This document shows, piece after piece, positions 28,948-62,942 of a stretch of 64,000 nucleotides of DNA. The stretch lies in contig JAKSYS010000108.1 of NCBI GenBank assembly GCA_022925895.1, positions 1 through 64,000 of the forward strand, written 5' to 3'. The notes beneath the pieces are model-generated. The model had not been told where the DNA came from and searched no databases. It was given only the letters and a program-made list of their open reading frames with translations. Position numbers and translations under genes: made by a program. How positions within the stretch are numbered: position 1 is the stretch's first letter; every line of letters starts with the position of its first letter. The stretch comes from Fragilaria crotonensis (lineage: Eukaryota > Bacillariophyta > Fragilariophyceae > Fragilariales > Fragilariaceae).

Positions 28948-29079
28948 AAAATCGACATCAAATTCTTTGATGTGACGCGTTTACATTTGATGCGTGTTGT
29001 TAATGCACCATGCGCACCGCTTGACTGTCATAATTCTCAAGTACCAAGCATCGGCACGCAGCCAAACCTCATAATCACC

Positions 29080-30222
29080 ATGTCAGAAGCAAGACCACTC
29101 AGCGAAGAGGAGCAGAAGTATATTAGAGCGAAGGCGCAAGAGGCCATGTCGCTTCTGGCGACTGAGTCACATGTGAACGAAATCAAAGTTGTTGATGGAT
29201 TGCAACACTCTTCATGGCTAAATGGCCCAGTCTCTAGTACTGAAGTATCTGACCGATGCCGATACTTCGATCAATTCGGCTTTCTCCATCTTCCTTCCTT
29301 TGCAACACGAGATGAAGTTCAGGCTATGAAGCATCAGATGGAAATGCTCACTCGCACTTGGGATCCTGCCGAGAAAACCATGGCCTTCTCAACCCAAGTC
29401 CAAGACAACGAATCGCAAGGAAGCGACGATTACTTTCTCGAATCTGCATCACGAGTGCATTTCTTTGCGGAAACGACTGCTCTTGACGAACACGGATCGC
29501 TCAAGGAGGAGTATTTGACCGACAAGATGCGAGCCCTCAACAAGGCAGGACACGCGATGCACATTATTCAAGGGGCGTTTCAGGACTATACTGTTTCCTC
29601 GAAAGTCAAGGCATTGGTAGCTGAGCTGGGATGGAAGGATCCAGTGGTTCCTCAGTCCATGTACATTTGCAAGAACCCAAAAATCGGCGGGACGGTTCAT
29701 TCTCATCAGGATTCAACTTTCTTATATACCGAACCCCGACAATCATGCTTGGGCCTTTGGTTGGCCTTGGACGATGCAACTCTGGTAAATGGTTGTTTGT
29801 GGGTACGTCCCAAGTCGCACCTTGAACCTGTTCGACGTCAATTCAAACGGAATGTAGACTACTTCACACAAGATAGGATTGATGAAAGTTCGAATCGAGG
29901 CAACGGAGACCCTTCGCAGCCCAAAATGATCTTCGAGGTCTTCCATCGGGACATTGAATGGGAAGGACAGCTGCCTCCTAACTCGGAGCCTCCCTGCCAT
30001 GGCCTTTTAGACGCAGGGTTCGTACCGATTGAGTGCAAAGCAGGAGATCTCCTTACCTTCGCAGGCACGTTAGATCACCTTAGCTTGCCGAACTATTCAG
30101 ACCAACAGCGCCATACCTTTCAACTTCACCTTGTGGAAGGCGAAAAGGCAGGCGTGTCATGGAGTCGTAGCAATTGGTTGCAGTATCCCAAGGAGGAGGG
30201 TTTTGTCAGCATAAGAATGTAA
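29080..30222 (+). CDS. Phytanoyl-CoA dioxygenase family protein (PHYHD1-like)
   Basis: A 380-residue single-exon protein of the Fe(II)/2-oxoglutarate-dependent phytanoyl-CoA dioxygenase family. These enzymes hydroxylate substrates using iron, 2-oxoglutarate and O2. The FDQFGFLHLPSFA start motif is at residues 63-75. The iron ligands are present: H209 and D211 in HSHQD and the distal H333 in TLDHLSLPN, with R344 in QQRHTF to bind 2-oxoglutarate. The protein ends normally and has no peroxisomal SKL tail. I chose the ATG at 29080 because homology begins soon after it. The frame is open upstream to an ATG at 28864 inside the LTR, which would add 72 residues of LTR-derived sequence. The substrate is unknown. 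Confidence 0.88.
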   Translation: MSEARPLSEEEQKYIRAKAQEAMSLLATESHVNEIKVVDGLQHSSWLNGPVSSTEVSDRCRYFDQFGFLHLPSFATRDEVQAMKHQMEMLTRTWDPAEKTMAFSTQVQDNESQGSDDYFLESASRVHFFAETTALDEHGSLKEEYLTDKMRALNKAGHAMHIIQGAFQDYTVSSKVKALVAELGWKDPVVPQSMYICKNPKIGGTVHSHQDSTFLYTEPRQSCLGLWLALDDATLVNGCLWVRPKSHLEPVRRQFKRNVDYFTQDRIDESSNRGNGDPSQPKMIFEVFHRDIEWEGQLPPNSEPPCHGLLDAGFVPIECKAGDLLTFAGTLDHLSLPNYSDQQRHTFQLHLVEGEKAGVSWSRSNWLQYPKEEGFVSIRM

Positions 30223-42909: not shown

Positions 42910-44800
42910 TTCCATACTACTGCGAGCCAAAAGTACATACTGGTATCGCACATTTCATTACCATATCATACCAAATATGTGCATATGTATGACGTATGAA
43001 TTCAAGTCCGAGTCGGAGTATAGTCGTATCGTCGTATCGCCATATTCCAAGATCATGCACATCTTTGATGATGGCACCTTGCTCAACGCACACCGAGAGG
43101 CTACAGTGGTGTACAGTGTACTGTGCCCCATAACCCATAACCCATAACCCATACCCTGATACTCCTGTACGACCAGTTTGGTACGATGAACGTCCGTGCT
43201 ACTCGATTTGCAGTAGAGTAAATCACTCAAGGATTTTGCGGCAGTCGTTACATTAACAATGAGCCCATTGACAGCTTGACAGTCAGGCTTGTCGCGTGTG
43301 AGGTCTAGTAGCGATGACGCCGAGGATTGCTATGACGTTCCGGGCTAAGGGAGCTCCATTACAAATCTCCCTTCGCTTGGATTCAGAACCACCAGTTCTT
43401 TTTCAATGCTAACAGAAAAGTTAACTGATTTGTTCCTTTAACCGTTAAGGGAAATTTGCTAAACTTTGCTGACCAAAGGGCAATTATTTCCTCCCCTAGC
43501 TCATTTCTTGTCTACAGGTTCATTTTATTGTTCTTGAACTCCACTTGTACAGCATGGACGAGTGAGTTTAAAACTTATTGCTGAGGAATCTAACATCAAG
43601 GATGAAGGATCAGAACAACAACAGCAGCATGTGCTTCTTCCATCACAAGCAAGTGGAAGAGACAGCAATGGTTCAAAAAAAACTTTCACAACACGCCTTA
43701 AGTGGCATGATCCCATATCCATGAGGCCCAAAGGGCGCATCCGCAGAGTATCAAAAGTGATAGATTCTTGATCTAAAATTCATGGTCAGCATGATAACTG
43801 GATGGATGTCATGCTGGTCGTAGGTATGCTGGTAGTAGAGCAACCATGATTTGCGGCTTCATTGGGGAAGGCAGGGTTGGTGTGGAAGGAATTTGCATTT
43901 GTGCCCTCAATCTTGCAGTAGGTGATCCAGATGGGACTCATAAAAATGATGAATGAGGAGGAGTCTGATGACCAATGCTGAGCAATGAGGTATTTTTGTG
44001 TTCTGCAGTTATGTTATAGCTACTGTACTGCAGCACTAGCCAGCTAGTGGTAGTACTGGAGTACAAGTTTTTATGCTACAATTCAATACTTGTACTCATC
44101 CACTGCTCTTATGTTTGTACTGGAGAATAGTGTACTTGTGCCAGGGTGGTGAAATCCACCAGCCAATTTTAGTCTAAGTGGTTGAAAAACACTGTTGGTG
44201 CTTTTTATGTGGTTGGGGCAATCATTTCAATACAGTGACGTTTGGACTAACACTCTACTGGAGTACATAGGATGCTGGTGATAACACCTTATCAATTGTT
44301 CTTTTATGTATTTGTATGATGTCATCAATTGTCACAAAGTCACATTAAGGTAATCTGCCTCAGCGTGCTGCCTCAAGAAGTTGTTGCTGGTGCTGCTGTC
44401 ACTGCTGATGGCAGTCTCAATTTCTTCACTTTCATATTTTTGCTTTCAACTATGGCTTTTTTGTGAACTGGCCATTGTTGGTCATCCCATACACAAACAT
44501 CTCCAACACATCCATGTTTATCGTGTTTTTTTTTGTTGCTTGCAACAGCATTTCTTCCAATTCTGGAGATGTTTGATACAGTACTAGTAAACAGTGTCAG
44601 TCATGCTGTCATGCAGTAAGATATGCACTACTACCGGTAGTATACTCTGTAAAAAGTATGCATACCAATTAATGGTGTTCAAATTTCAAACTCCTTGAAA
44701 AACACGTTTTTACGAAGAGAAAGCATCAACGACCACTCGGCAACAGGCCACCGGCCCCCGAACCGAAGTGGGTTATCCTACTCCTTTTTAAATTTGCTTT
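42910..44800. other. Intergenic, nothing recognised
   Basis: About 1.9 kb of AT-rich sequence. It contains three copies of a CATAACC unit near 43128-43152, a 69-codon open frame (43562-43771) without known similarity, and the TACTACCGGTAGTA palindrome at 44629-44642. I see no gene with support. Confidence 0.5.
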
Positions 44801-44820
44801 GTGCGTGCGTGTGTGTGTGT
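44801..44820. repeat. (GT)n microsatellite at the left end of the LINE array
   Basis: GTGCGTGCGTGTGTGTGTGT borders the 3' end of LINE copy 1. Confidence 0.85.
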
Positions 44821-45202
44821 TGGGTGCTATGTATGTTACGTGTGACTAAGCTATGCTATGTGTGATTGAGGTGTGTATGAATGGGCCGGTACAGCAGTGT
44901 CGTAGGCATCGCGTAGCGGTGCGCCGGTGCTATACATCCGAAAATCGAGAAACCAGGGCATGCTCCATGGGATTGCGTCGTTCGGCAGCGGGATCGGGGG
45001 CAGGGGCGAGGGGACACATCGGTTACATGCGATAGAGGCCGAGGCCCGTTCCGCTGTCCCACATCGGGGAGGGGGTACGGCGCATCGGGTTTCGATCGGC
45101 CCGGAGGCATCGGCTCGCGGAGCGAACCAGGGCGATCGAGAGGCGCGATCGTACGAAGCCACACACTTCGGAGTACGACCGCTTCCATTTGGAGGCAAGG
45201 CT

Positions 45203-45236
45203 GGAGGCTAGCCGCCGCGAAGCGGCGGTAGCCTCC
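45203..45236. other. Conserved hairpin in the LINE coding tail (copy 1)
   Basis: GGAGGCTA and TAGCCTCC, then CCGCCGC and GCGGCGG, pair around GAA, giving 15 bp with one bulged base. It recurs at 49338-49371, 53540-53573 and, shortened, at about 57668-57699. It lies within the conserved tail of the protein. Confidence 0.75.
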
Positions 45237-46779
45237 ACGCCTTGCATCCCGTCCACCGAGAACACGAGAGGGGTGAAGGTACGGCGTCGCGCAATGCAGA
45301 GCGCGCCGTACTTGTCCTTCTTCTCTTTCTCGTGGCGCAGGAGGACCTTCTCCGGGGTCGTGTTGCGATTCGAGGGGGCGTCGGTGTCGGTGACGCGGAC
45401 GTCGAATATCGCCGTGGTGCCTCGGGTCCAGAACCCATGGACAGCGATGTCGCCGCGGAGCTCTGGGGTGGTTCGGTGCGGTTGGCGCCTGCCGCTCGCA
45501 CGTCCTGACTTGGTTGGATTAGGGGCTCGTCAGAGACCGTGGAGGGGGTGTACGCTTGTCCGCAAAGGAGTCCCCATGTCGCCACGAGGTCGTTGTGGCG
45601 GTGGAGGATCAGGCCTCCTTTGCGACAGGACATGGCGTGCTCCGTCGTGAAGCGTTCGCCACAGCCGTCGCATCGGGGCGGGAGAGATGCTGGCGTCAGG
45701 CCGAAGCGGAGGCGGACGCCATCTCGGAATTCTTCTGCCGAAAGGTCGGAGCCGTTCAGAAGGCTCGGCAGGGTGGAGAGCCAGGCACCGGTCGCCGCCG
45801 ACCGTACGATGCGTCGCTTCTCCAGGGGTCGCGAGCTCGCGAGTATCGCGTCCAAGCGGCTCGCGTGGACGCGAGACCGGCTCGCCTTCGCCGCGAGGCG
45901 ACCTCTGGAAGCGTCGCGCTTGTGCTCCGTAGCACAGAGCCTGTCGCCCGTCACCAGGGACCCTTGGAGGAGGGTCGTGCTCTCCTTCGACGCCGCGAAG
46001 CAGAACTCGCCTGTGGTCGTCGGGTCCGGGATGCCCAAGCCTCCCAGTCGCGTCGGGAGAGCGAGGAGAGGGCGGAGTTTGGCAACCTCCTCGACCGTGG
46101 TGGCGAGGAGAGCCGGCAGGAAGACAGTTGCGATGGCAGCCTCCAGCGGTGCGAAGGCAGGCGCGATGTCTGGCGTCACGCGCTGGAGGTACTGCCACTC
46201 CGCCTGGAGTGACTGCGACAGACCGGCGTAGGCGGTCTGTGGGTACCTCCTCGCCGCCGCCGCGAGGCTGTGGACCCCCTCGATCCATTGCTGGACTTGG
46301 GGGTCCACCCATGCCGCCTCGGCGGCGCCCGATCCCACGAAGCCGCCCAGGTAGCGGTGTCCCTCCTCGTGTCGGAAGTTGAATTCCGCGAGGGGCACGA
46401 GGGCAGGTGGCGGGGTCGCGAGCGGGACGATGAGGATAGACTTGTCCGGCTCGGGGAAGTAACCCCGGCGCGGCCCAAGGTCGAGAAGGAGTCGCTGAGC
46501 CTCAGCGATGCCGTCGACAGGGCCTGCCATGGCCGCGTCGTCCGCGTACCATGGTTGGGCGACCGTGGGGACTCGCTCTCGAATGGTCTCGGCGAGCGGC
46601 GTCAGCGCGAGTCCGTAGAGCACCATGGAGAGGGGGTCGCCTTGCGTGACCCCCTCTCGTGAGAGGATGATCTCACAGTCGCCCCCGCGTCGTCGCAGGA
46701 GGAGTTGGGCCGAATGCCGGTAGCAGTTGAAGCTAAACCGGGCGCCGTTGGCCCAACGGTGGCGCACGGTCCAGAGCAT
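45208..46779 (-). CDS. LINE copy 1: RT palm to CCHC knuckle, 523-residue frame
   Basis: This frame shows the RT loop LSREGVTQGDPLSMVLYG, the catalytic YADDAA, then the thumb, a basic linker, LPSLLNGSDLSAEEFRDGV and the CCHC knuckle CDGCGERFTTEHAMSC followed by RHND. These are the marks of LINEs that use a restriction-like endonuclease (R2, CRE and relatives). After the RHND motif the frame leaves the endonuclease reading, which continues in another frame (RGDIAVHGFWTRGTTAIFDV). Confidence 0.8.
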   Translation of the reverse strand: MLWTVRHRWANGARFSFNCYRHSAQLLLRRRGGDCEIILSREGVTQGDPLSMVLYGLALTPLAETIRERVPTVAQPWYADDAAMAGPVDGIAEAQRLLLDLGPRRGYFPEPDKSILIVPLATPPPALVPLAEFNFRHEEGHRYLGGFVGSGAAEAAWVDPQVQQWIEGVHSLAAAARRYPQTAYAGLSQSLQAEWQYLQRVTPDIAPAFAPLEAAIATVFLPALLATTVEEVAKLRPLLALPTRLGGLGIPDPTTTGEFCFAASKESTTLLQGSLVTGDRLCATEHKRDASRGRLAAKASRSRVHASRLDAILASSRPLEKRRIVRSAATGAWLSTLPSLLNGSDLSAEEFRDGVRLRFGLTPASLPPRCDGCGERFTTEHAMSCRKGGLILHRHNDLVATWGLLCGQAYTPSTVSDEPLIQPSQDVRAAGANRTEPPQSSAATSLSMGSGPEAPRRYSTSASPTPTPPRIATRPRRRSSCATRKRRRTSTARSALRDAVPSPLSCSRWTGCKAWRLPPLRGG

Positions 46780-48954
46780 GGCCTTGCGGCCGAGCTCGTT
46801 GAAGCCGTTGGTCGCGTCGACCAGGAGGACGGCCGAGGCCTCCGCCGAGGAGAGGCCACGTCGTCGGCGATGGCCTCGAAGGCCTCGTCCAGCGTCATGT
46901 CGGCGAGGGGACGGGGGCAGTGCAGCCGTCGGAGGCCGGGCGCCTGCGTGAGGGGGTCGTCGGCAACCTGCGAGTCAGGGGCGGGCGGGGATCAGCGAGG
47001 GTCAGCGAAGACGTCACGCACGGCGTGGACGGCGCCTTCGATGCCGGCCTGAAGGCCGGCGCACAGGTTGAGTTGCCGCACGCAGCCGTCGCCTGCGAGC
47101 CGATTGCCTTCAAGAGGCATTTGGCCCACAGGCGACGGTACACTTCGCCGATGCCGACCGGGCGAGTGCCTGGTTGCTTGTCAAGCGCAACCAGGCGATT
47201 CGCCATCACGGCGCGGTAGGCTGCCCAAGGCGGCGAGGTGTTGGCGAGCCAGTTGGTCCAGGCCGCCATCTCCTCGCAGCGCCTCGGACTCGTCCGAAGC
47301 GAAGAAGCCAGTTGGCGAGGTCGACGGCGTCGGTGCCGCCGGGCCGGCGGCGCCTGCGAGCCGTGAGGAGATCGCCTCCACGTCGTCCTGTGTATGCACA
47401 CAGGGACGGGGGCAGGGAGATCGGGATAGGGCTCGAAAGCCCCATCCGCATCGCCCACAGAGGTCGGGTCGCGGAGGGCAGGGTGCTTCTCTTGAAGCAC
47501 CTGCCAGACCGGTCGACCTGCCTTCGAGCAGAGGTCGTCAGGCTGGCGGACGCCGCCGCCGGAGCGGTCGGTGAGCGTCCGCACGGCGGAACGAAGTCTG
47601 CCGGAGAGGACGCGTGCGTTGAAGGAACGCGCCTGCGCCTCTTCGTCGGGTGGACGGGAGGAGGGTTGTCGAAAGGACTTCCTCAGCGTCGTCGACCAAG
47701 GCCTTGAAGTGGCCTTGGTCCCACAAGTCCATTCGTTGCGCGAGGCGCGAACGAATGTCCTTGGCGCGACGAACCCTGGTGTCGTCTGCAACACTGTTGC
47801 GACGAACACCAGGCGTTCGAGTTCCATCGGCGTTCGCGTACGCCCGGAACTCGGAGGTGAGGATGGCAAGGAAACGCCGCCCCACTCTACCAGCGGGGCC
47901 TGGTAGCGTGTGGTGGCGATTTGTGCCATCCTCCTCCATCGGCGCTGCCAGAGCGCGTCATCGGAGAAGCCGCCATGGAGATGCGTCCCGTCGTTATCGT
48001 GGACGTGATCTCCGTAGGCGGAATCCAGAAGGCGATCTGCCGCGGTTACGAAGTAGCCGGGCAGATCGGCCCCGCGTCCGGCGTTACTGCCGGCCGGGGC
48101 CGCCTCTGATCGTCCCGTGCAGTGGCGTTGGCCCTATTGGCCGCCGCTGTCACGGGGACAAGCAGGAATCGGGTCCTCGCCAGCGTTGGCGGCCGTCTCT
48201 GTATCCGTCGGGGCGGGCAAGGAGGGGACGTCGTTGTCGTCGTCAGGCGGCGGAGCGGGGGCCCGATCCAGTGGCTCCGGGGTCATGCCGACGTCATCGT
48301 CGACGTCGATCGTCGATGCGGATGGTTGTCGGGATGTCGGGGAAAGCGCTGGGGGGATCTCGGTCGCGGTCAGAGCGGCAGCTGGTGGGGCAGATTCGGT
48401 TGCTGGGGTGTGTTCTGTGGGCGCAGTGGCGCTGGGACTGGCGAAGAAGCATCGGAGGGTCGCTGTTGTCGGCGTTGGCAGCGGCGCTCGCTTGTTCTGG
48501 CAGTTGTTGAAGCAGCTGCACGAAGTGCAGCGCCTGTTCGCAACTCGGCAGGGACAAGCGGCAGAGCGAGCTGTCGGCCGTGACAGAGCACAGGTCGACG
48601 ATCTGGAGCAGTCACAGCAGCGCTGAAGGACTTGTCGCTGTCGACGCTGCGGTGGTTCAGAGTTGAACCATCGTCTGCGTCGACGTGCGAGTCGTCATGC
48701 AACGGCTGCGGACGGACAGAGGACGGACGCTCGCGCGTTGTACCGTGGGTACGAGCGCGCTACGCGTCGAGGAGTTTTGAATTTCCTGGCGCGCGGTTGG
48801 CAACATGAGGCGACGATGACCGACACCGTCGATCACCGCCGTTACAGCTCTGTTCGCTGTCGTTCCTCGGCCGTTGCCCCTCGCATCGCCATTCACACTC
48901 ATGACACTGCACAGCAAAGTTCTCGTCGGCTTGACTTGACGACAACTCCAATGT

Positions 48955-48968
48955 GGTGTGTGTGTGTT
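48955..48968. repeat. (GT)n between copies 1 and 2
   Basis: About seven GT units, the shortest junction of the array. Confidence 0.85.
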
Positions 48969-49157
48969 GGGTGCTATGTATGTTACGTGTAGCTAAACTA
49001 GGGATGTGTGTATGAATGGGCCGGTACAACAGTGCCGTAGGCATCGCGTAGCGGTGCGCCAGTGCTATACATCCGAAAGTCTTGAATCCGGGGCGTGCGC
49101 CATGGGGATGCGTCGTTCGGCAGCGGGAGCGGCGGCAGGGGCAAAGGGGCACGTCAG

Positions 49158-50062
49158 TTACATGCGGTAGAGGCCGAGGCCCGCGCCGCAGTCCCAGATC
49201 GGGGAAGGGGTACGGCGCATCGGGTTGCGATCGGCGCGTAGGCAGCGGCTCGCGGAGCGAACCAGGGCGATCGCGAGGCGGGATCGTACGAAGCCACACA
49301 CTTCGGAGTACGATCGCCTCCACTTGGAAGCAAGGCTGGAGGCTAGCCGCCGCGAAGCGGCGGTAGCCTCCACGCCTGCATCCCATCCACCGAAAACACA
49401 AGGGGAGTGAAGGTACGGCGTCGCGCAATGCAGAGGGCGCCGTATTTGGCCTTCTTCTCCGCCTCGTGTCGCTGGAGGACCTTCGCCGGAGCGGTGTTGC
49501 GATTCGAGGGGGCATCCGTGTCGGTGACTCGGACATCAAAGATCGCCGTGGTGCCTCGGGTCCAGAAGCCGTGGACAGCGATGTCGCCTCGGAGTTCTGG
49601 GGTGGGCTCGGTGCGGTTGGCGCCCGCCGCCTGCACGTCCTGACTCGTTTGGATGAGGGCTCGTCAGAGACTGTGGAGGGTGTGCGCCTGTCCGCAAAGC
49701 TGTCCCCACGTCGCCACGAGGTCGTTGTGGCGGTGGAGGATCAGCCCTCCTTGCGACAGGACATGGCGTGCTCCGTCGTGAAGCGTTCGCCACATCCGTC
49801 GCATCGGGTGGAGAGATGTTGGCGTCAGGCCGAAGCGGAGGCGGACGCCGTCTCGGAACTCTTCGTCCGAGAGGTCGGAGCCGTTGAGAAGGCTCGGCAA
49901 GGTGGAGAGCCAGGCGCCGGTCGCCGCCGACCGTACGATGCGTCGCTTCTCCAGTGGACGCGAGCTCGCGAGGATCGCGTCCAGCGGCTCGCGTGACGCG
50001 AGACCGGCTCGCCTTCGCCGCGAGGCGACCTCGGGAAGCGTCACGCCGGTGCTCCGTAGCAC
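49158..50062 (-). pseudogene. LINE copy 2: CCHC knuckle, restriction-like endonuclease and tail (frame-broken)
   Basis: Three frames share this part. 49664-50062 has LPSLLNGSDLSDEEFRDGV and the knuckle region with GGLILHRHNDL. 49343-49636 has LRGDIAVHGFWTRGTTAIFD followed by VRVTDTD and KYGALCIARRRTFTPLVFSV, the acid and lysine pattern of the LINE endonuclease. 49158-49373 has the tail RRLASSLASKWRRSYSEV and FVRSRLAIALVRS. All domains are recognisable, with two or three one-base frame changes. Confidence 0.8.
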
Positions 50063-50077
50063 AGAGCCTGTCGCCCG

Positions 50078-52987
50078 TCACCAGGACCCCTGGAGGAGGG
50101 TCGTGCTCTCCTTCGACGCCGCGAAACAGAAGTCGCCTGTGGTCGTCGGGTCTGGGATGCCCAGGCCTCCCAGTCGCGTCGGGAGAGCGAGGAGGGGGCG
50201 AAGTTTGGCAACCTCCTCAACCGTTGTGGCGAGGAGGGCCGGCAGGAAGACAGTCGCGATGGCAGCCTCCAGCGGTGCGAAGGCTGGCGCGATGTCTGGC
50301 GTCACGCGCTGGAGGTACTGCCACTCCGCCTGGAGTGACTGCGACAGACCGGCGTAGGCGGTCTGTGGGTACCTCCTCGCTGCCGCCGCGAGGCGGTGGA
50401 CACCCTCGATCCATTGCTGGACCTGAGGGTCCACCCATGCCGCCTCGGCGGCGCCCGATCCCACGAAGCCACCGAGGTAGCGATGTCCCTCCTCGTGTCG
50501 GAAGTTGAACTCCGCGAGGGCTGCAAGGGCAGGTGGCGGGGTCGCGAGCGGGACGATGAGGATCGACTTGTCCGGCTCGGGGAAGTATCCCCGGCGCGGC
50601 CCAAGGTCGAGAAGGAGGCGCTGAGCCTCAGCGATGTCGTCGATGGGGCCTGCCATGGCCGCGTCGTCCGCGTACCATGGTTGGGCGACCGTGGGGACTC
50701 GCGCTCGAAGCGTCTCGGCGAGCGGCGACAGCGCGAGTCCGTAGAGCACCATGGAGAGGGGGTCGCCTTGCGTGACCCCCTCTCGCGAGAGGATGATCTC
50801 GCAATCTCCTCCGCGCCGTCGCATGAGGAGTTGGGCGGAGTGCCGGTAGCAGTTGAAACTGAACCGTGCCCCGTTGGCCCACGTGTGACGCACGGTCCAT
50901 AGCATGGCCTTGCGGCCGAGCTCGTTGAAGCCGTTGGTCGCGTCGACCAAAAGGACGGCCGAGGCTTCAGCCGAGGAGAGGCCTACGTCGTCGGCGATGG
51001 CCTCGAAGGCCTCGTCCAGCGTCATGTCCGCGAGGGGGACGGGGGGTGGCGCAGTCACCAGTGGCTCGGGAGCCTGCGTGAGGGGGTCATCGTCGGAGTG
51101 CTGGTCTGGTGGCGGTGTAGGAATCAAGGAGGGGTCGGCGAAGACGTCACGCACGGCGTGTACGGCGCCTTCGATGCCTGCCTGGAGGCCGGCACACAGG
51201 TTGTAGTTGCCGCATGCGGCGGTTGCCTGTGAGCCAATTGCCTTCAGCAGGCATTTGGCCCACAGGCGACGGTACACTTCGCCGATGCCGACCGGGCGAG
51301 TGCCTGGTTGCTTGTCAAGGGCGACCAGGCGATTCGCCATGACTGCCCGATAGGCTGCCCAAGGCGGCGAGGTGTTGGCGAGCCAGTTGGTCCAGGCCGC
51401 CATCTCCTCTCGCAGCGCTTCGGACTCTCGTCCGAAACGGAGAAGCCAGTTGGCGAGGTCGACGGCGTCAGTACCGCCGGGGCCGGCGGCACCTGAGAGC
51501 CGTGAGGCGATCGCCTCCACGTCGTCCTGTGTAGTGCACACAGGGACGGGGGCAGGGAGATCGGGATAGGGCTCGAAAGCCCCATCCGTATCGCCCACAG
51601 AAGTCGGGTCGCGGAGGGCAGGGTGCTTCTCTTGAAGCACCTGCCAGACCGGTCGACCTGCCTTCGAGCAGAGGTCGTCTGGCTGGCGGACGCCGCCACC
51701 GGAGCGGTCGGTGAGTGTCCGCACGGCAGAGCGAAGTCTGCCGGAGAGGACGCGTGCGTTGAAGGAACGCGCCTGCGCCTCTTCGTCGGGTGGACGGGAG
51801 GAGGGTTGTCGAGACTGGACTTCCCCCTCAGCGTCGTCGACCAAGGCCTTGAAGTGGCCTTGGTCCCACAAGTCCATTCGTTGCGCGAGGCGCGAACGAA
51901 TGTCCTTGGACCGACGAACTCCTGGTGTCGTCTGCAGCACTGTTGCGACAAACACCAGGGGTCGTTCCGAGTTCCATCGGCGTTCGCGGACGCCGCGGAA
52001 TTCGGAGGTGAGGATGGTTAGGAATCGCCTCCCCACTCTCCCAGCAGGGGCCTGGTAGCGTGTGGTGGCGATTTGTGCCATCCTCCTCCATCGGCGCTGC
52101 CAGAGCGCGTCATCGGAGAAGCCGCCGTGGAGATGCGTCCCGTCGTTGTCGTGGACGTGATCTCCATAGGCGGAATCCAGAAGGCGATCTGCCGCGGTTA
52201 CGAAGTAGCCGGGCAGATCGGCCCCCGCGTCCGGCGTTACTGCCGGTCCGGGGGCCGCCTCTGGATCGTCCCGTGCAGTGGCGTTGGCCCTATTGGCCGC
52301 TGCCACTGTCACGGGGGGACAAGCAGGAATCGGGTCCTCGCCAGCGTTGGCGGCCGTCTCTGTATCCGTCGGGGCGGGCAAGGAGGGGTCGTCATTGTCG
52401 TCTTCAGGCGTCGGAGCGGGGGCCCGATCCAGTGGCTCCGGGGTCATGCCGACGTCACCGTCGACGTCAGTCGTTGCGGTTTGTTGTCGGGTTGTCTGGG
52501 AAGGCGCTGGGGGGATCTCGGTCGCGGTCGGAACGGCAGCTGGAGGGGCGGATTCGATTGCTGGGGTGGGCTCTGTGGTCGCAGTTGCGCCGGGACTGGT
52601 GAAGAAGCATCGGAGGGTCGCTGTGTCGGCGGCGGCAGCGGCGCTCGCTTGTTCTGGCAGTTGTTGAAGCAGCTGCACGAAGTGCAGCGCTTGTTCGCAA
52701 CTCGGCAGGGACAAGCTGTGAGCGAGCTGTCGGCCGTGCCAGGGCACAGGTCGATGATCTCGAGCAGTCGCAGCAGCGCTGGAGGACTTGTCGCTGGCGA
52801 CGCAACGGTGGTTCGCGAGTGGAACCATCGTCGTCGTTTTGTAGCGACTCATCACTCTCCAGCAGCTGCGGACGGACAGAGGACGGACGCTCGCGCGTTG
52901 TACCGGAGGGTACGAGCGCGCTACGCGTCGAGGAGTTTTGAATTTCCTGGCGCGCGGTTGGCAACATGAGGCGACGATGACCGACAC
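50078..52987 (-). CDS. LINE copy 2: linker and reverse transcriptase, 969-residue frame
   Basis: The longest coding stretch of the array. After a low-complexity linker come FSDDALWQRRWRRM, LAQRMDLWDQGHFKALVDDA, GIGEVYRRLWAKCLLKAIG, the palm VLLVDATNGFNELGRKAML, LSREGVTQGDPLSMVLYG, catalytic YADDAA (50657-50674) and LGGLGIPDPTTTGDFCFAA of the thumb. The N-terminal cysteine motif is in another frame, so at least one frame change lies upstream, and another cuts the frame after the thumb. The first codon is not ATG, so the left limit is nominal. Confidence 0.8.
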   Translation of the reverse strand: MSVIVASCCQPRARKFKTPRRVARSYPPVQRASVRPLSVRSCWRVMSRYKTTTMVPLANHRCVASDKSSSAAATARDHRPVPWHGRQLAHSLSLPSCEQALHFVQLLQQLPEQASAAAAADTATLRCFFTSPGATATTEPTPAIESAPPAAVPTATEIPPAPSQTTRQQTATTDVDGDVGMTPEPLDRAPAPTPEDDNDDPSLPAPTDTETAANAGEDPIPACPPVTVAAANRANATARDDPEAAPGPAVTPDAGADLPGYFVTAADRLLDSAYGDHVHDNDGTHLHGGFSDDALWQRRWRRMAQIATTRYQAPAGRVGRRFLTILTSEFRGVRERRWNSERPLVFVATVLQTTPGVRRSKDIRSRLAQRMDLWDQGHFKALVDDAEGEVQSRQPSSRPPDEEAQARSFNARVLSGRLRSAVRTLTDRSGGGVRQPDDLCSKAGRPVWQVLQEKHPALRDPTSVGDTDGAFEPYPDLPAPVPVCTTQDDVEAIASRLSGAAGPGGTDAVDLANWLLRFGRESEALREEMAAWTNWLANTSPPWAAYRAVMANRLVALDKQPGTRPVGIGEVYRRLWAKCLLKAIGSQATAACGNYNLCAGLQAGIEGAVHAVRDVFADPSLIPTPPPDQHSDDDPLTQAPEPLVTAPPPVPLADMTLDEAFEAIADDVGLSSAEASAVLLVDATNGFNELGRKAMLWTVRHTWANGARFSFNCYRHSAQLLMRRRGGDCEIILSREGVTQGDPLSMVLYGLALSPLAETLRARVPTVAQPWYADDAAMAGPIDDIAEAQRLLLDLGPRRGYFPEPDKSILIVPLATPPPALAALAEFNFRHEEGHRYLGGFVGSGAAEAAWVDPQVQQWIEGVHRLAAAARRYPQTAYAGLSQSLQAEWQYLQRVTPDIAPAFAPLEAAIATVFLPALLATTVEEVAKLRPLLALPTRLGGLGIPDPTTTGDFCFAASKESTTLLQGSW

Positions 52988-53115
52988 CGTCGATCACCGC
53001 CGTTACAGCTCTGTTCGCTGTCGTTCCTCGGGCGTTGCCCCTCGCGGCACCATTCACACTCATGACACTACACAAAGGCTCTCTCGTCGGCTTGACTTGA
53101 CGACAACTCCGATGT

Positions 53116-53116
<1 letters not shown>

Positions 53117-53167
<51 letters not shown>
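53117..53167. repeat. (GT)n between copies 2 and 3
   Basis: About 25 uninterrupted GT units, the longest junction. Confidence 0.9.
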
Positions 53168-53168
<1 letters not shown>

Positions 53169-56100
53169 TGTATGTTACGTGTGACTAAGCTATGCTATGT
53201 GTGATTGAGGTGTGTATGAATGGGCCGGTACAACAGTGCCGTAGGCATCGCGTAGCGGTGCGCCAGTGCTATACATCCGAAAATCGAGAATCCGGGGCGT
53301 GCTCCATGGGATGCGTCGTTCGGCAGCGGGATCGGGGGCAGGGGCGAGGGGCACATCAGTTACATGCGATAGAGGCCGAGGCCCGCTCCGCAGTCCCAGA
53401 TCGGGGAGGGGGTTCGGCGCATCGGGTTGCGATCGGCGCGGAGGCAGCGGCTCGCGGAGCGAACCAGGGCGATCGCGAGGCGCGATCGTACGAAGCCACA
53501 CACTTCGGAGTACGATCGCTTCCATTTGGAAGCAAGGCTGGAGGCTAGCCGCCGCGAAGCGGCGGTAGCCTCCACGCCTTGCATCCCGTCCACCGAGACA
53601 CGAGAGGGGTGAAGGTACGGCGTCGCGCAATGCAGAGCGCGCCGTATTTGTCCTTCTTCTCTTTCGTGGCGCAGGAGGACCTTCTCCGGGGTGTTGCGAT
53701 TCGAGGGGCGTCCGTGTCGGTGACGCGGACATCGAAGATCGCCGTGGTGCCTCGGGTCCAGAACCCGTGGACAGCGATGTCGCCGCGGAGTTCTGGGGTG
53801 GTTCGGTGCGGTTGGCGCCTGCCGCCTGCACGTCCTGACTCGTTGGATGAGGGGCGTCAGAGACTGTGGAGGGTGTGCGCCTGTCCGCAAAGCTGTCCCC
53901 ATGTCGCCACGAGGTCGTTGTGGCGGTGGAGGATCAGCCCTCCTTTGCGACAGGACATGGCGTGCTCCGTCGTGAAGCGTTCGCCGCATCCGTCGCATCG
54001 GGGTGGGAGAGATGTTGGCGTCAGGCCGAAGCGGAGGCGGACGCCGTCGCGGAACTCTTCATCCGAGAGGTCGGAGCCGTTCAGAAGGCTCGGCAGGGTG
54101 GAGAGCCAGGCACCGGTCGCCGCCGACCGTACGATGCGTCGCTTCTCCAGGGTCGCGAGCTCGCGGATCGCGTCCAGCGGCTCGCACGGACGCGAGACCG
54201 GTTCGCCTTCGCCGCGAGGCGACCTCTGGAAGCGTCGCGCCTGTGCGCCGTAGCACAGAGCCTGTCGCCCGTCACCAGGGACCCTTGAGGAGGGTCGTCT
54301 CCTTCGACGCCGCGAAGCAGAACTCGCCTGTGGTCGTCGGGTCTGGGATGCCCAATCCTCCCAGTCGCGTGGGAGAGCGAGGAGGGGCGGAGTTTGGCAA
54401 CCTCCTCGACCGTAGTGGCGAGGAGAGCCGGCAGGAAGACAGTCGCGATGGCAGCCTCCAGCGGTGCGAAGGCGGGCGCGATGTCTGGCGTCACGCGCTG
54501 GAGGTACTGCCACTCCGCCTGGAGTGACTGTGACAGACCGGCGTAGGCGGTCTGTGGGTACCTCCTCGCCGCCGCCGCGAGGCTGTGGACCCCCTCGATC
54601 CATTGCTGGACTTGGGGGTCCACCCATGCCGCCTCGGCGGCGCCCGATCCCACGAAGCCGCCCAGGTAGCGGTGCCCTTCCTCGTGTCGGAAGTTGAATT
54701 CCGCGAGGGACACGAGGGCAGGTGGCGGGGTCGCGAGCGGGACGATGAGGATCGACTTGTCCGGCTCGGGGAAGTAGCCCCGGCGCGGCCCAAGGTCAAG
54801 AAGGAGGCGCTGAGCCTCAGCGATGCCGTCGACAGGGCCTGCCATGGCCGCGTCGTCCGCGTACCATGGCTGGGCGACCGTGGGGACTCGCGCTCGAAGG
54901 GTCTCGGCGAGCGGCGTCAGCGCGAGTCCGTAGAGCACCATGGAGAGGGGGTCGCCTTGCGTGACCCCCTCTCGCGAGAGGATGATCTCGCAGTCGCCCC
55001 GCCGTCGCAGGAGGAGTTGGGCCGAGTGCCGGTAGCAGTTGAAACTGAACCGGGCACCGTTGGCCCAGCGGTGGCGCACGGTCCAGAGCATGGCCTTGCG
55101 GCCGAGCTCGTTGAAGCCGTTGGTCGCGTCGACCAGGAGGACGGCCGAGGCCTCAGCCGAGGAGAGCCCACGTCGTCGGCGATGGCCGCGAAGGCCTCGT
55201 CCAGCGTCATGTCGGCGAGGGGACGGGGGCAGCGCAGCCGTCGGAGCCTCGGGCCTGCGTGAGGGGTCGTCGGCGGCCTGCGAGTCAGGGGGCGGGCAGG
55301 GATCAGCGAGGGGTCGGCGAAGACGTCGCGGACGGCGTGGACGGCGCCCTCAATGCCGGCCTGAAGGCCGGCGCAGAGGTTGAAATTGCCACACGCAGCC
55401 GTCGCCTGCGAGCCGATTGCCTTCAAGAGGCATTTGGCCCACAGGCGACGGTACACCTCGCCGATGCCAACCGGGCGAGTGCCTGGTTGCTTGTCGAGCG
55501 CAACCAGGCGATTCGCCATCACGGCGCGGTAGGCCGCCCAGGGCGGCGAGGTGTTGGCGAGCCAGTTCGTCCAGGCCGCCATCTCCTCTCGTAGCGCCTC
55601 GGACTCTCGTCCGAAGCGAAGTAGCCAGTTGGCGAGGTCGACGGCATCGGTGCCGCCGGGTCCGGCGGCGCCGGCGAGCCGCGAGGAGATTGCCTCCACG
55701 TCATCCTGTGTGACATGCACAGGGACGGGGGCAGGGAGATCGGGATAGGGCTCGAAAGCCCCATCGGCATCGCCCACAGAGGTCGGGTCGCGGAGAGCAG
55801 GGTGCTTCTCTTGAAGCACCTGCCAGACCGGTCGACCTGCCTTCGAGCAGAGGTCGTCAGGCTGGCGTACGCCACCGCCGGAACGGTTGGTGAGCGTTCG
55901 CACGGCGGAACGAAGTCTGCCGGAGAGGACGCGTGCGTTGTAGGAACGAGCTTGCGCCTCTGCGTCGGGTGGACGGGAGGAGGGTTGTCGAGAAAGGACT
56001 TCCCCCTCGGCGTCGTCGACCAAGGCCTTGAAGTGGCCTTGGTCCCACAAGTCCATTCGTTGCGCGAGGCGCGAACGAATGTCCTTGGCGCGACGAACCC

Positions 56101-57295
56101 CTTGTGTCGTCTGCAACACTGTTGCGACGAACACCAGGGGGCGTTCCGAGTTCCAGCGGCGTTCGCGTACGCCCCGGAACTCGGACGTGAGGATGGCAAT
56201 GAAACGCCGCCCCACTCTACCAGCGGGGGCCTGGTAGCGGGTGGTGGCGATCTGTGCCATCCTCCTCCATCGGCGCTGCCACAGCGCGTCATCGGAGAAG
56301 CCGCCATGGAGATGCGTCCCGGCGTTATCGTGGACGTGGTCTCCGTAGGCGGAATCCAGAAGGCGATCTGCCGCGGTTACGAAGTAGCCGGGCAGATCGG
56401 CCCCCGCGTCCGGCGTTACTGCCGGTCCGGGGGCCGCCTCTGGATCGTCCCGTGCAGTGGCGTTGGCCCTATTGGCCGCTGCCACTGTCACGGGGGGACA
56501 AGCAGGAATCGGGTCCTCGCCAGCGTTGGCGGCCGTCTCTGTATCCGTCGGGGCGGGCAAGGAGGGGTCGTCGTTGTCGTCGTCGGGCGTCGGAGCGGGG
56601 GTCCGATCCAGTGGCTCCGGGGTCATGCCGACGTCACCGTCGACGTCGATCGTCGATGCGGATGGTTGTCGGGATGTCGGGGAAAGCGCTGGGGGGATCT
56701 CGGTCGCGGTCGGAACGGCAGCTGGTGGGGCGGATTCGATTGCTGGGGTGGGCTCTGTGGTCGCAGTGCGCTGGGACTGGTGAAGAAGCATCGGAGGGTC
56801 GCTGTTGTCGGCGGCGGCAGCGGCGCTCGCTTGTTCTGGCAGTTGTTGAAGCAGCTGCACGAAGTGCAGCGCCTGTTCGCAACTCGGCAGGGACAAGCTG
56901 TGAGCGAGCTGTCGGCCGTGACAGAGCACAGGTCGACGATCTGGAGCAGTCGCAGCAGCGCTGAAGGACTTGTCGCTGTCGACGCAACGGTGGTTCGCGA
57001 GTTGAACCATCGTCTGCGTCGACGTGCGAGTCGTCATGCAACGGCTGCGGACGGACAGAGGACGGACGCTCGCGCGTTGTACCGTGGGTACGAGCGCGCT
57101 ACGCGTCGAGGAGTTTTGAATTTCCTGGCGCGCGGTTGGCAACATGAGGCGACGATGACCGACACCGTCGATCACCGCCGTTACAGCTCTGTTCGCTGTC
57201 GTTCCTCGGGCGTTGCCCCTCGCGGCACCATTCACACTCATGACACTGCACAGCAAAGTTCTCGTCGGCTTGACTTGACGACAACTCCAATGTGG
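53168..57295 (-). mobile_element. RLE-type LINE, array copy 3 (type A)
   Basis: About 4.13 kb with all parts of the family. Long frames are 54917-57256 (779 residues, linker and early RT), 54081-55091 (RT palm with YADD at 54846-54863, thumb), 53857-54627 (ending in the CCHC knuckle and RHND) and 53360-53998 (ending in the conserved tail). The frame changes are one base each. The end variants match copy 1. Confidence 0.88.
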
Positions 57296-57325
57296 TGTGT
57301 GTGTGTGTGTGTGCTGTGTGTGTGT
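57296..57325. repeat. (GT)n between copies 3 and 4
   Basis: About 15 units with an interruption (GCTGTG). Confidence 0.85.
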
Positions 57326-60300
57326 ACGTGTGCTAAACTAGGGATGTGTGTATGAATGGGCTGGTACAACAGTGCCGTAGGCATCGCGTAGCGGTGCGCC
57401 AGTGCTATACATCCGAAAGTCTTGAATCCGGGGCGTGCGCCATGGGATGCGTCGTTCGGCAGCGGAGCGGCGGCAGGGCAAGGGCACGTCAGTTACATGC
57501 GGTAGAGGCCGAGGCCCGCTCCGCAGTCCCAGATCGGGGAGGGTACGGCGCATCGGGTTGCGATCGGCGCGGGCAGCGGCTCGCGGAGCGAACCAGGGCG
57601 ATCGCGAGGCGGATCGTACGAAGCCACACACTTCGGAGTACGATCGCCTCCATTTGGAAGCAAGGCTGGAGGCTAGCCGCCGCGAAGCGGCAGCCTCCAC
57701 GCCTGCATCCCATCCACCGAGAACACAAGGGAGTGAAGGTACGGCGTCGCGCAATGCAGAGGGCGCCGTATTTGGCCTTCTTCTCGCCTCGTGTCGCTGG
57801 AGGACCTTCGCCGGGGCGGTGTTGCGATTCGAGGGGCATCCGTGTCGGTGACGCGGACATCAAAGATCGCCGTGGTGCCTCGGGTCCAGAATCCGTGGAC
57901 AGCGATGTCGCCGCGGAGTTCTGGGGTGGGCTCGGTGCGGTTGGCGCCCGCCGCCTGCACGTCCTGACTCGTTTGGATGAGGGCTCGTCAGAGACTGTGG
58001 AGGGTGTGCGCCTGTCCGCAAAGCTGTCCCCACGTCGCCACGAGGTCGTTGTGGCGGTGGAGGATCAGCCCTCCTTGCGACAGGACATGGCGTGCTCCGT
58101 CGTGAAGCGTTCGCCGCATCCGTCGCATCGGGGTGGGAGAGATGTTGGCGTCAGGCCGAAGCGGAGGCGGACGCCGTCGCGGAACTCTTCGGCCGAGAGG
58201 TCGGAGCCGTTGAGCAGGCTCGGCAGGAGAGCCAGGCGCCGGTCGCCGCCGACCGTATGATGCGTCGCTTCTCCAGTCGGTCGCGAGCTCGCAGGATCGC
58301 GGCGGCTGCTTGACGCGAGACCGGCTCGCCTTCGCCGCGAGGCGACCTCGGAAGCGTCGCCGGTGCTCCGTAGCACAGAGCCTGTCGCCCGTCACCAGGA
58401 CCCTGGAGGAGGTCGTGCTCTCCTTCGACGCCGCGAAGCAGAAGTCGCCTGTGGTCGTCGGGTCTGGGATGCCCAGGCCTCCCAGTCGCGTGGGGAGAGC
58501 GAGGAGGGCGAGTTTGGCAACCTCCTCGACCGTTGTGGCGAGGAGGGCCGGCAGGAAGACAGTCGCGATGGCAGCCTCCAGCGGTGCGAAGGCTGGCGCG
58601 ATGTCTGGCGTCACGCGCTGGAGGTACTGCCACTCCGCCTGGAGTGACTGCGACAGACCGGCGTAGGCGGTCTGTGGGTACCTCCTCGCCGCCGCCGCGA
58701 GGCAGTGGACACCCTCGATCCATTGCTGGACCTGGGGTCCACCCATGCGCCTCGGCGGCGCCCGATCCCACGAAGCCGCCCAGGTAGCGGTGCCCTCCTC
58801 GTGTCGGAAGTTGAACTCCGCGAGGGCTGCAAGGGCAGGTGGCGGGGTCGCGAGCGGACGATGAGGATCGACTTGTCCGGCTCGGGAAGTATCCCGGCGC
58901 GGCCCAAGGTCGAGAAGGAGGCGCTGAGCCTCAGCGATGCCGTCGATGGGCCTGCCATGGCCGCGTCGTCCGCGTACCATGGCTGGGCGACCGTGGGGAC
59001 TCGCGCTCGAATGGTCTCGGCGAGCGGCGTCAGCGCGAGTCCGTAGAGCACCATGGAGAGGGGTCGCCTTGCGTGACCCCCTCGCGAGAGGATGATCTCG
59101 CAATCTCCTCCGCCGTCGCAGGAGGAGTTGGGCGGAGTGCGGTAGCAGTTGAAACTGAACCGTGCACCGTTGGCCCACGGTGACGCACGGTCCATAGCAT
59201 GGCCTTGCGGCCGAGCTCGTTGAAGCCGTTGGTCGCGTCGACCAGGAGGACGGCCGAGGCTTCAGCCGAGGAGAGGCCTACGTCGTCGGCGATGGCCGCG
59301 AAGGCCTCGTCCAGCGTCATGTCGGCGAGGGGGACGGGGGCGGCGCAGCCATCGGTGGCTCGGGAGCCTGCGAGGGGTCAGCGTCGGCCTGCGAGTCTGG
59401 TGGCGCAGGAATCAACGAGGGTCGGCGAAGACGTCACGCACGGCGTGTACGGCGCCTTCGATGCCGGCCTGGAGGCCGGCACACAGGTTGTAGTTGCCGC
59501 ATGCGGCGGTTGCCTGCGAGCCAATTGCCTTCAGCAGGCATTTGGCCCACAGGCGACGGTACACTTCGCCGATGCCGACCGGGCGAGTGCCGGTTGCTTG
59601 TCGAGTGCAACCAGGCGTTCGCCATCACGGCCGATAGGCTGCCCAAGGCGGCGAGGTGTTGGCGAGCCAGTTGGTCCAGGCCGCCATCTCCTTCGCAGCG
59701 CTTCGGACTCGCGTCCGAAGCGGAGAAGCCAGTTGGCGAGGTCGACGGCGTCGGTGCCGCCGGGGCCGGCGGCGCCTGAGAGCCGTGAGGAGATCGCCTC
59801 CACGTCGTCCTGTGTATGCACACAGGGACGGGGCAGGAGATCGGGATAGGGCTCGAAAGCCCCATCCTATCGCCCACAGAGGTCGGGTCGCGGAGGGCAG
59901 GGTGCTTCTCTTGAAGCACCTGCCAGACCGGTCGGCCTGCCTTCGAGCAGAGGTCGTCAGGCTGGCGGACGCCGCCGCCGGAGCGGTCGGTGAGTGTTCG
60001 CACGGCAGAGCGAAGTCTGCCGGAGAGGACGCGTGCGTTGAAGGAACGCGCCTGCGCCTCTTCGTCGGGTGGACGGGAGGAGGTTGTCGAGACTGGACTT
60101 CCCCCTCAGCGTCGTCGACCAAGGCCTTGAAGTGGCCTTGGTCCCACAAGTCCATCGTTGCGCGAGGCGCAACGAATGTCCTTGGCCGACGAACTCCTGT
60201 GTCGTCTGCAGCACTGTTGCGACAAACACCAGGGGCGTTCGAGTTCCAGCGGCGTTCGCGTACGCCCGGAACTCGGAGGTGAGGATGGCAATGAATCGCC

Positions 60301-61381
60301 TCCCCACTACCAGCAGGGGCCTGGTAGCGTGTGGTGGCGATTTGTGCCATCCTCCTCCATCGGCGCTGCCAGAGCGCGTCATCGGAGAAGTCGCCGTGGA
60401 GATGCGTCCCGTCGTTGTCGTGGACGTGATCTCCAAAGGCGGAATCCAGAAGGCGATCTGCCGCGGTTACGAAGTAGCCGGGCAGATCGGCCCCGCGTCC
60501 GGCGTTACTGCCGGTCCGGGGGCCGCCTCTGGATCGTCCCGTGCAGTGGCGTTGGCCCTATTGGCCGCTGCCACTGTCGCGGGGGGACAAGCAGGAATCG
60601 GGTCCTCGCCAGCGTCGGCGGCCGTCTCTGTATCCGTCGGGGCGGGCAAGGAGGGTCGTCATTGTCGTCGTCGGGCGTCGGAGCGGGGTCCGATCCAGTG
60701 GCTCCGGGGTCATGCCGACGTCACCGTCGACGTCAGTCGATGCGGATGGTTGTCGGGTTGTCTGGGAAGGCGCTGGGGATCTCGGTCGCGGTCGGAACGG
60801 CAGCTGGGGGGGCGGATTCGATTGCTGGGGTGGGCTCTGTGGTCGCAGTTGCGCCGGGACTGGTGAAGAAGCATCGGAGGGTCGCTGTTGTCGGCGGCGG
60901 CAGCGGCGCTCGCTTGTTCTGGCAGTTGTTGAAGCAGCTGCACGAAGTGCAGCGCTTGTTCGCAACTCGGCAGGGACAAGCTTGTGAGCGAGCTGTCGGC
61001 CGTGCCAGAGCACAGGTCGACGATCTCGAGCAGTCGCAGCAGCGCTGGAGGACTTGTCGCTGTCGACGCAACGGTGGTTCGCGAGTGGAACCATCGTCGT
61101 CGTCGACGTGCGACTCATCACTCGCCAACGGCTGTCGACGGACAGAGGACGGACGCTCGCGCGTTGTACCGGTGGGTACGAGCGCGCTACGCGTCGAGGA
61201 GTTTTGAATTTCCTGGCGCGCGGTTGGCAACATGAGGCGACGATGACCGACACCGTCGATCACCGCCGTTACAGCTCTGTTCGCTGTCGTTCCTCGGGCG
61301 TTGCCCCTCGCGGCACCATTCACACTCATGACACTACACAAAGGCTCTCTCGTCGGCTTGACTTGACGACAACTCCGATGT

Positions 61382-61383
<2 letters not shown>
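57326..61383 (-). mobile_element. RLE-type LINE, array copy 4 (type B)
   Basis: About 4.06 kb, some 90 bp shorter than copy 2 through many scattered single-base losses, mostly in runs of G or C. It therefore has only short frames: 60733-61341 with the N-terminal CPCRVANKRCTSCSC motif, 59030-59320 around the RT palm, and 57988-59178 from the palm to the CCHC knuckle (YADD at 58959-58976). Every domain of copy 2 is still recognisable. Confidence 0.85.
60733..61341 (-). CDS. LINE copy 4: N-terminal frame with cysteine motif
   Basis: A 202-residue frame shows best the N-terminus of this LINE family. It contains ACPCRVANKRCTSCSCFNNC followed by QNKRAP, a cysteine pattern similar to the small zinc-binding motif found at the N-terminus of many RLE-type LINEs, where it helps recognise the target DNA. 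An additional cysteine pair (LQRCCDCSRSSTC) lies just before it. The start is uncertain. Confidence 0.6.
   Translation of the reverse strand: MCSVMSVNGAARGNARGTTANRAVTAVIDGVGHRRLMLPTARQEIQNSSTRSALVPTGTTRERPSSVRRQPLASDESHVDDDDGSTREPPLRRQRQVLQRCCDCSRSSTCALARPTARSQACPCRVANKRCTSCSCFNNCQNKRAPLPPPTTATLRCFFTSPGATATTEPTPAIESAPPAAVPTATEIPSAFPDNPTTIRID

Positions 61384-61417
<34 letters not shown>
61384..61417. repeat. (GT)n at the right end of the LINE array
   Basis: About 17 GT units at the 5' side of copy 4, followed by unrelated sequence. Confidence 0.9.
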
Positions 61418-61419
<2 letters not shown>

Positions 61420-62942
61420 TTACGGAGAATGACCACTCTGGGGTACTGTTGTACTGTTACGTGGATTACATGTACTACAGGTCTACAGTACATAAATCGA
61501 CGGTAATTTATGTTGAAACGACGGTGTCTTACGTTACTGAATTACAATACTGTACGAATTCAAAGTTACTGGATGGAGAATGCTCATTGAATTTGCTGTG
61601 AACAGGTTGCTTGACAAATGCTACTGTAAAACATACCGTGCGTTGAACTGCAATACTGGAGAATGAGACAACTCTGGTGGTACTGGCACTGTACCTTACA
61701 TCACTGGCTATTTATAAGTAACATTTGGACAAACTAAATTAGCAAATTTCTATGAAATCATCACATCTTCCCTTTTCCCTTATGTACAGATACCACTACG
61801 TACATAGCTTAAGCAATTACAATGCCTCTCAGTATTGCAGTGGACACCAATACTATGCTGCAAACTGGGTACTGTACGTCCTGTAATACCGAACACCGAA
61901 CACATTGGAAACACAATACCGATATAACCTTTACTCCGATCAATTGTGAGGCACCCACTCTAGTTCTAACAACAAGACCAACAATCCAGTCAGCAAGAAA
62001 CAACTGCCTGCAAACCATGACTTGAGCTTGATCAGGGTCCGATTAGGTTTCACCAATTTGACGTCAACGCCCACGTCACAGTACTGATGACTTCACGTTC
62101 AACGTACTGACATACAGTACTACAGTAAGACAGTAACATGCTGAGAGCATCCTGATTGGTACGCGCTGACGTCAAATCGGTGAAACCTAATCGGATCTTG
62201 TCACATGTCATCCTATTGTATCGCAGAACCGTACATATGACATACAACGGTGTTGCATGTGGCATGTGAGCACATGTCTGTTGTCTGTTATCAACTCGTG
62301 TTTCCTGTTTCCACCCACACCAAGGAGGACCACTCCGGACAGTGTACTCCGTACTCCGTAGCAGTACAGAACTTGTGCAGTTGTACTAGTACGTCGTCTC
62401 CGTATAAGGTACTTGTACAGTATGAGGTATGAGGTACTGTATGACATATGAGGTATGAGGTATGAGCACTCTAGTAGAGATGTTTAGTCCGAGAATTCCT
62501 GCCACGCACCTCTGCGCTTGTAATAATAATTGAATGCATAGCATGATGTAGAATGCGTATGATATATGATATGCATAGATGCCGCAAGAATAAAATCTGA
62601 AGAGACCATATGGTTTTTATATACATGTATAAGCCAAGTACGATTCAGTCGGGTCCGAGGATGAATGTGTGAGCACACATTTGCACATGACATATGATAT
62701 ATGTACGCACGATTTGACAATCCTGTAACTGTGGATTCACTGTAAACATAGAAATAACGGTAGCATATAACAAGTATCCACAGGGCGAATTAACAACTGC
62801 CGTCCAGGTTTGACGCAGTTCTTGTGGAGGATGTCACGTTTTGATCGCCGAGTGCCGAGTTCTGTTGCGTGTGCGCAGTATTGCCAATCGTTCGCTTTGT
62901 TGCAACGATATATCATCGTTATCACTTTCTCGTTTGCACATC
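61418..62942. other. Intergenic, AT-rich, with a MITE-like inverted repeat
   Basis: No gene recognised. The stretch is rich in short GTAC/TACAGTA palindromic motifs, has tandem GAGGTAT-type units near 62424-62465, and holds the inverted repeat listed at 62038-62195. Confidence 0.5.
62038..62195. mobile_element. MITE-like element, 158 bp
   Basis: 33-bp arms 62038-62070 and 62163-62195 are inverted copies with 31 of 33 matches; the left arm begins TCCGATTAGGTTTCACC. The 92-bp centre has no coding capacity. I found no clear target duplication, so this is a candidate non-autonomous DNA element or a remnant of one. Confidence 0.55.

Follow-up and report, generated by a model that had tools for sequence, protein, structure and literature searches.

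The window analysed here, the first 64,000 nucleotides of contig JAKSYS010000108.1 of Fragilaria crotonensis (GCA_022925895.1), contains an array of a long interspersed nuclear element (LINE) in which every copy is bounded by GT microsatellites. The LINE very probably inserts sequence-specifically and in a single orientation into a GT tract that starts roughly 25 bp in from the 5' terminus of a Helitron family, and its arrays would arise mainly by reinsertion. The site and orientation of insertion, an empty site bearing GT, GT-flanked 5'-truncated copies and the mixing of lineages within arrays were observed directly.

The LINE array and its insertion site

Four LINE copies of 4.06-4.15 kb each lie head to tail at 44821-61382 with a repeat spacing of 4.1-4.2 kb, all in one orientation with minus as the coding strand. 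The initial annotation had described four such copies with GT at every end, and this was confirmed: GT adjoins 8/8 copy ends, and all five runs of (GT)6 or longer in the window are located at array junctions. The window holds no (CA)6 or longer run, and outside the array a single run of (GT)4 or longer was seen, at 34755. The match between GT runs and array junctions is plain. On the left, the 5' terminus of the target Helitron copy (A/TCCTACTCCTTTTTAAATTTGCTTTGTGCGTGCG, the slash marking the element boundary) and the left part of its (GT)n occupy 44776-44820 on the plus strand, with (GT)6 as the outer tract at 44809-44820. Copy 1 (44821-48955, minus strand, 3' end at the low coordinate) is followed by (GT)6 at 48956-48967, copy 2 (48968-53116, minus), (GT)25 at 53117-53166 and copy 3 (53167-57294, minus). 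Between copies 3 and 4 the GT tract is interrupted (57295-57325, composed of (GT)9 at 57295-57312 and (GT)5 at 57316-57325). Copy 4 (57326-61382, minus) adjoins (GT)17 at 61383-61416, the right part of the target tract. The remainder of the target Helitron copy, from TTGTTACGGAG... to ...CACCCACTCTAG/T, extends over 61417-61963 on the plus strand, with the 3' end being provisional. The outer GT tracts run on into sequence that is a dispersed repeat.

The assembly of 62,107,879 bases in 881 contigs, in which the window is part of contig C14, was searched with internal LINE sequence without junction sequence, and 20 stretches were then extracted. The query yielded at least 30 matches from 29 candidates, all of which were scored, and the genome has at least 25 near-full-length copies. 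Incomplete copies were seen on C446 (interrupted), C636 (lacking its 3' part), C285 (a short fragment), C526 and C125 (just the 3' ends) and C702 (partial second copy at the contig end). The copy on C446 is split by about 5.4 kb of other sequence (stretch L063, 4369-9787).

Junctions were read with the LINE antisense, as in the window, so that left denotes the LINE 3' side. Upstream of the motif TCCTACT, the only left flanks to align over 150 bp were those of C328 and C372 (99%), which are two versions of one site. With these merged, and with C125 added (none of the 12-mers in its 32 bp of upstream DNA recurs at the other sites), there are 17 independent left sites, all in one repeat family and in one orientation. 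The C526 site also has a diverged second version at C43:89898, which was left out of the site count. The external left rows carry the Helitron 5' end TCCTACT in 17/17 cases, each time preceded by A, and the LINE joins 21-65 bp inside this end at every one of the 17 independent sites whose 3' side could be read. In 15 of the 17 rows the join lies within a run of 4-22 GT units. On the right, a GT-type tract followed by TACGGAG was found in 15/17 rows (imperfect in C441 and C673); the two misses are C702, where another LINE copy follows at the end of the contig, and the broken copy C446. The internal array junctions were GT-type throughout (11/11), some of them imperfect.

Identity of the target repeat and of the LINE protein

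When up to 2 mismatches are allowed, the right part of the target repeat occurs 533 times (control 0). Its left-end form as in the window occurs 73 times (control 0), 59 of them on contigs not marked as LINE-bearing. A search with PF14214, the Helitron Rep profile, gave 59 rows, several per element, and none in 14 control genomes. On contigs C1-C101, for which the list of exact-match repeat ends is complete, the target repeat was located 2.05-2.4 kb upstream of Rep on the same strand at 7 of 8 PF14214 loci, while the chance of this spacing is about 1.7% per locus. The sole miss, on C68, begins 812 bases into its contig. On other contigs the repeat was upstream of Rep in 4 of 11 rows (C120, C775 and C438 at 2.3-2.4 kb, C218 at 0.6 kb), a biased set, as 10 of the rows were picked because their contig bears a listed left end.

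The hallmarks given for Helitrons are TC at the 5' end, CTRR at the 3' end and insertion between A and T (PMC4067079). The termini of the target repeat fit A/TC...CTAG/T. A/TC was present in 17/17 left rows of LINE sites and in 12 of the 13 left-end rows of a comparison of repeat copies, and CTAG in 15 of 19 rows with a 3' match, 13 of which continued with T. TA stood before TC in 16/17 rows, and a preference for TA is possible. C236 is 95% like the left flank of C446 but lacks the Helitron, with A/T at the join (that side only). Because the target repeat lies upstream of Rep genes and has A/TC...CTAG/T ends, we conclude that it forms the 5' end of a family of Helitrons. An in-frame TGA was seen in 11 of the 59 PF14214 rows.

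The motifs indicate that the LINE family has a single long open reading frame with reverse transcriptase (RT), a CCHC knuckle and a putative restriction-like endonuclease (RLE). An uninterrupted frame of more than 1200 amino acids with RT, RHN and endonuclease motifs is present in 3 of 25 copies, one with an off-frame stretch; in the remaining 22 the frame is broken by stops or frame changes. In the window, copy 2 has an open frame of 971 amino acids from stop to stop (50078-52993, minus) with the RT motifs QGD and YADD, and its zinc-knuckle and endonuclease part follows downstream, past one stop and a frame change. The CCHC positions are each kept in 22-25 of 25 copies. The positions RGD...FDVRV...K...KY, which we take to be the endonuclease motif, are kept in 20-25 of 25. 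These motifs support the RLE type proposed by the initial annotation, although no profile matched the endonuclease fold. A search of NCBIfam gave no match.

Several observations weigh against an RLE-type LINE directed to GT at a Helitron end. The best solved-structure matches of the RT, whose motifs are present, are R2 proteins, but with E values of 0.026-0.42 they are not significant, and the match to Pfam RVT_1 was under the cut-off. The knuckle spacing, CX2CX7HX3C, is one residue off the rule for RLE LINEs, which is CX2-3CX7-8HX4C ahead of the endonuclease (PMC5678591). In a profile search of the endonuclease part against the PDB no solved structure matched. As for the Helitron, a 3' palindrome of 16-20 nt about 11 bp from the 3' end, as described for these elements (PMC4067079), was not found in the three 3' ends that were folded, all of which were no stabler than shuffles. 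At the junctions, GT is missing left of the LINE in C441 and C673 and is no more than imperfect to its right, and the broken copies C446, C125 and C636 each have one side without adjoining GT. Around the C285 fragment no Helitron was found in 451 bp.

Site recognition, array growth and origin of the GT tract

The LINE may recognise any sufficiently long (GT)n, as the initial annotation saw it, with Helitron tips being hit because they supply most of the long tracts. This alternative concerns site recognition and is compatible with the rest of our explanation; we rate its chance as only a little short of even. GT tracts starting with G were classified on C1-C101, with diverged Helitron ends falling into the class elsewhere; T-start tracts were kept apart (26 of (TG)8 or longer). 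The genome has 339 G-start tracts of (GT)5 or longer, of which 100 were listed and 65 are on C1-C101. These comprise 12 LINE junctions, 15 LINE-free Helitron ends and 38 tracts elsewhere. Thus 38 of the 53 LINE-free tracts lie outside Helitrons, and 16 sites would all fall into Helitron ends by chance with p of about 2e-9, an optimistic value because diverged Helitron ends were scored as elsewhere. This argues against recognition of GT alone, as do C441 and C673, where the Helitron copies at the site contain almost no pure GT. On the other hand, the excess is weaker with longer tracts. Of 116 G-start tracts of (GT)7 or longer in the genome, 23 are on C1-C101: 7 LINE-related (with C43:90070 put in this class), 12 in Helitron ends and 4 elsewhere. 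Hence 19/23 are in Helitron ends or LINE junctions, and of the 16 LINE-free ones 12 are in Helitron ends and 4 outside, so that 16/16 Helitron sites would be reached by chance with p of about 0.01. Long GT tracts are mostly Helitron-borne, and GT alone could mimic a specificity for Helitrons. In addition, inside arrays new copies adjoin GT, with the Helitron flanks kilobases off.

Taken together, these data do not fully separate recognition of the Helitron tip from recognition of plain GT. Tentatively, and with somewhat less than an even chance, the LINE can be viewed as a specialised Helitron parasite that reads the tip itself, i.e. flank plus GT, and has in it a self-renewing landing pad spread by Helitron copying. 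Helitrons might also carry LINE arrays as cargo.

The relationships between LINE copies bear on how the arrays grew. In 8 of 10 adjacent pairs both members were closer to copies in other arrays, with 90.2-95.0% identity to the neighbour vs 95.9-98.6% elsewhere. Furthermore, 5'-truncated copies flanked by GT tracts were found on C526 (69 nt) and C106 (14 nt); the truncated copy on C125 (363 nt) has GT at the 3' side only. From the cross-array pairs and the GT-flanked truncated copies we conclude that the arrays grew mainly by repeated insertion, as the initial annotation had it with new copies landing beside older ones. The 14 nt on C106, at the right end of stretch L060, derive from the LINE 3' end and stand between two GT tracts; they appear to be what an extremely truncated insertion has left.

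That the arrays came mainly from one insertion, multiplied by tandem duplication or by unequal crossing-over at (GT)n, is unlikely given the cross-array nearest copies, often with 90-91% to the neighbour vs about 98% elsewhere. Such a process may account for one or a few pairs. C505_1 and C505_2 are mutual nearest copies (98.7%), and in the mixed pair C15_2/C15_3 the nearest copy of C15_2 is its neighbour (97.3%). In the window array, C14_1 is nearest to C14_3 (96.0%; best outside copy 95.9%) and C14_4 to C14_2 (97.0%; best outside copy 96.8%), i.e. to non-adjacent members of the same array that are barely ahead of outside copies. The C14 copies looked mosaic in 500-column blocks, and some exchange between copies inside arrays is possible. 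Clustering above equal chance also speaks for duplication: the 24 independent copies occupy 14 sites, while insertion with equal chance into 73 self-renewing sites predicts 18.2 (P(<=14) 0.019). Equal-chance insertion over 73 sites was thus rejected as an account of the array counts. The same model with 30-40 sites predicts 13.6-15.2 occupied sites and fits the observed 14.

An empty counterpart of the window array was found on C543. It matches the left flank over 514 bp at 99.2% and 138 bp at 100% and the right flank over 650 bp at 99.5% and 990 bp at 97.8%. The Helitron is present there and contains a GT tract, but the LINE is absent. A Helitron stretch at about 61700-61930 is common to the window and C543 and absent from the other copies examined. 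Because C543 additionally contains an insert of about 0.8 kb (stretch L010, about 512-1326), which is missing from the window at about 44655 and has a duplication of about 17 bp around it, the two loci are divergent alleles or a recent duplicate. This is the one site with a demonstrated empty counterpart; a flank search for 13 other sites gave near-full-length second versions of the C446 and C526 flanks only, neither of which was clean empty. The empty allele and the LINE-free Helitron ends carry the tract, and therefore (GT)n belongs to the target and is more than a piece of the element itself. The initial annotation had named (GT)n or (CA)n as the target; GT is indeed present at the empty site, yet the occupied sites point to a narrower target, the (GT)n close to the 5' terminus of a single Helitron family. 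That (GT)n instead belongs to the element, as a tail or 5' repeat carried by every copy, is highly improbable in view of the tract in C543 and in LINE-free Helitron ends, even though almost all intact copies have GT at either end and long internal tracts such as the (GT)25 of the window may in part be copied from an RNA tail. A solely element-derived (GT)n, which the initial annotation had listed as an alternative, is ruled out by the empty allele; a partial contribution is possible.

A mechanism consistent with these data would start with a nick in the GT strand by the endonuclease, presumably the RLE. The freed (GT)n 3' end could pair with the 3' tail of the LINE RNA, which would end in (CA)n, and prime reverse transcription (target-primed reverse transcription, TPRT), after which the LINE 5' end would be joined to the remaining GT tract. 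As GT would be left on both sides after each insertion, the site would be regenerated and be open to later copies of any active lineage, resulting in head-to-tail arrays. Incomplete TPRT is expected to leave 5'-truncated copies, and the GT-flanked 69-nt and 14-nt copies fit this.

Neighbouring features and comparison with known systems

Elsewhere in the window, pieces of a LINE of the apurinic/apyrimidinic endonuclease (APE) type were detected at 2462-9030 (minus) with RVT_1 (E 1.9e-6, just under the cut-off) and Exo_endo_phos (E 4.5e-9). A weak match to Phage_integrase at 10496-12229 (plus; E 0.001, below the cut-off) is perhaps a tyrosine-recombinase transposon. Two regions are host-like, a piece of a glycosyltransferase family 92 gene at 20165-20863 (plus; E 1.7e-9) and a PhyH dioxygenase gene at 28864-30222 (plus; E 1.7e-36).

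The LINE and its target clearly illustrate how one mobile element can provide another with a landing site that is renewed. With 17 occupied and many more unoccupied sites in one genome, target recognition, regeneration and array growth are directly countable. The long GT tracts of this genome are largely at transposon ends, and a LINE that appears to be microsatellite-specific may be specific to the repeat carrying the microsatellite.

A LINE target inside another transposon has a parallel in Tx1L of Xenopus, which is found in Tx1D; yet Tx1L has an APE endonuclease, and Tx1D is a DNA transposon of a different kind. Array growth by repeated insertion is shared with the telomere-seeking LINEs MoTeR and Zepp, which form head-to-tail arrays in a simple repeat, whereas the target here is a Helitron tip. 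R2 of 28S rDNA, the top solved-structure match of the RT, although weak and not significant, has another target, and the knuckle spacing of the present LINE departs by one residue from the RLE-LINE rule. Targets of elements without long terminal repeats (non-LTR elements) include transposons and microsatellites (PMC4640811). Utopia is RLE-type as well, and one of its families occurs occasionally in tandem in its target, but that target is an RNA gene, the U2 small nuclear RNA genes (PMC4640811). The Togen families of fish are described as RLE-type non-LTR elements specific for (TG)n microsatellites, with an unresolved position near NeSL and HERO (PMC4640811). Hence the novelty that the initial annotation saw in a GT-specific RLE LINE is not supported. 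For Togen, a link to a host transposon and lineage-mixed arrays are not mentioned in the cited part of that source (PMC4640811). Internal microsatellites are known in rolling-circle elements of the Helentron/DINE-1/HINE group, like that of the target repeat here; these differ in their ends and insertion preference, and targeting by LINEs is not mentioned in the cited part of the source (PMC4067079). A literature search of titles and abstract openings found no LINE aimed at Helitron ends. Thus RLE LINEs specific for (TG)n are already known, while the Helitron-tip target and the lineage-mixed arrays are new as far as this search shows.

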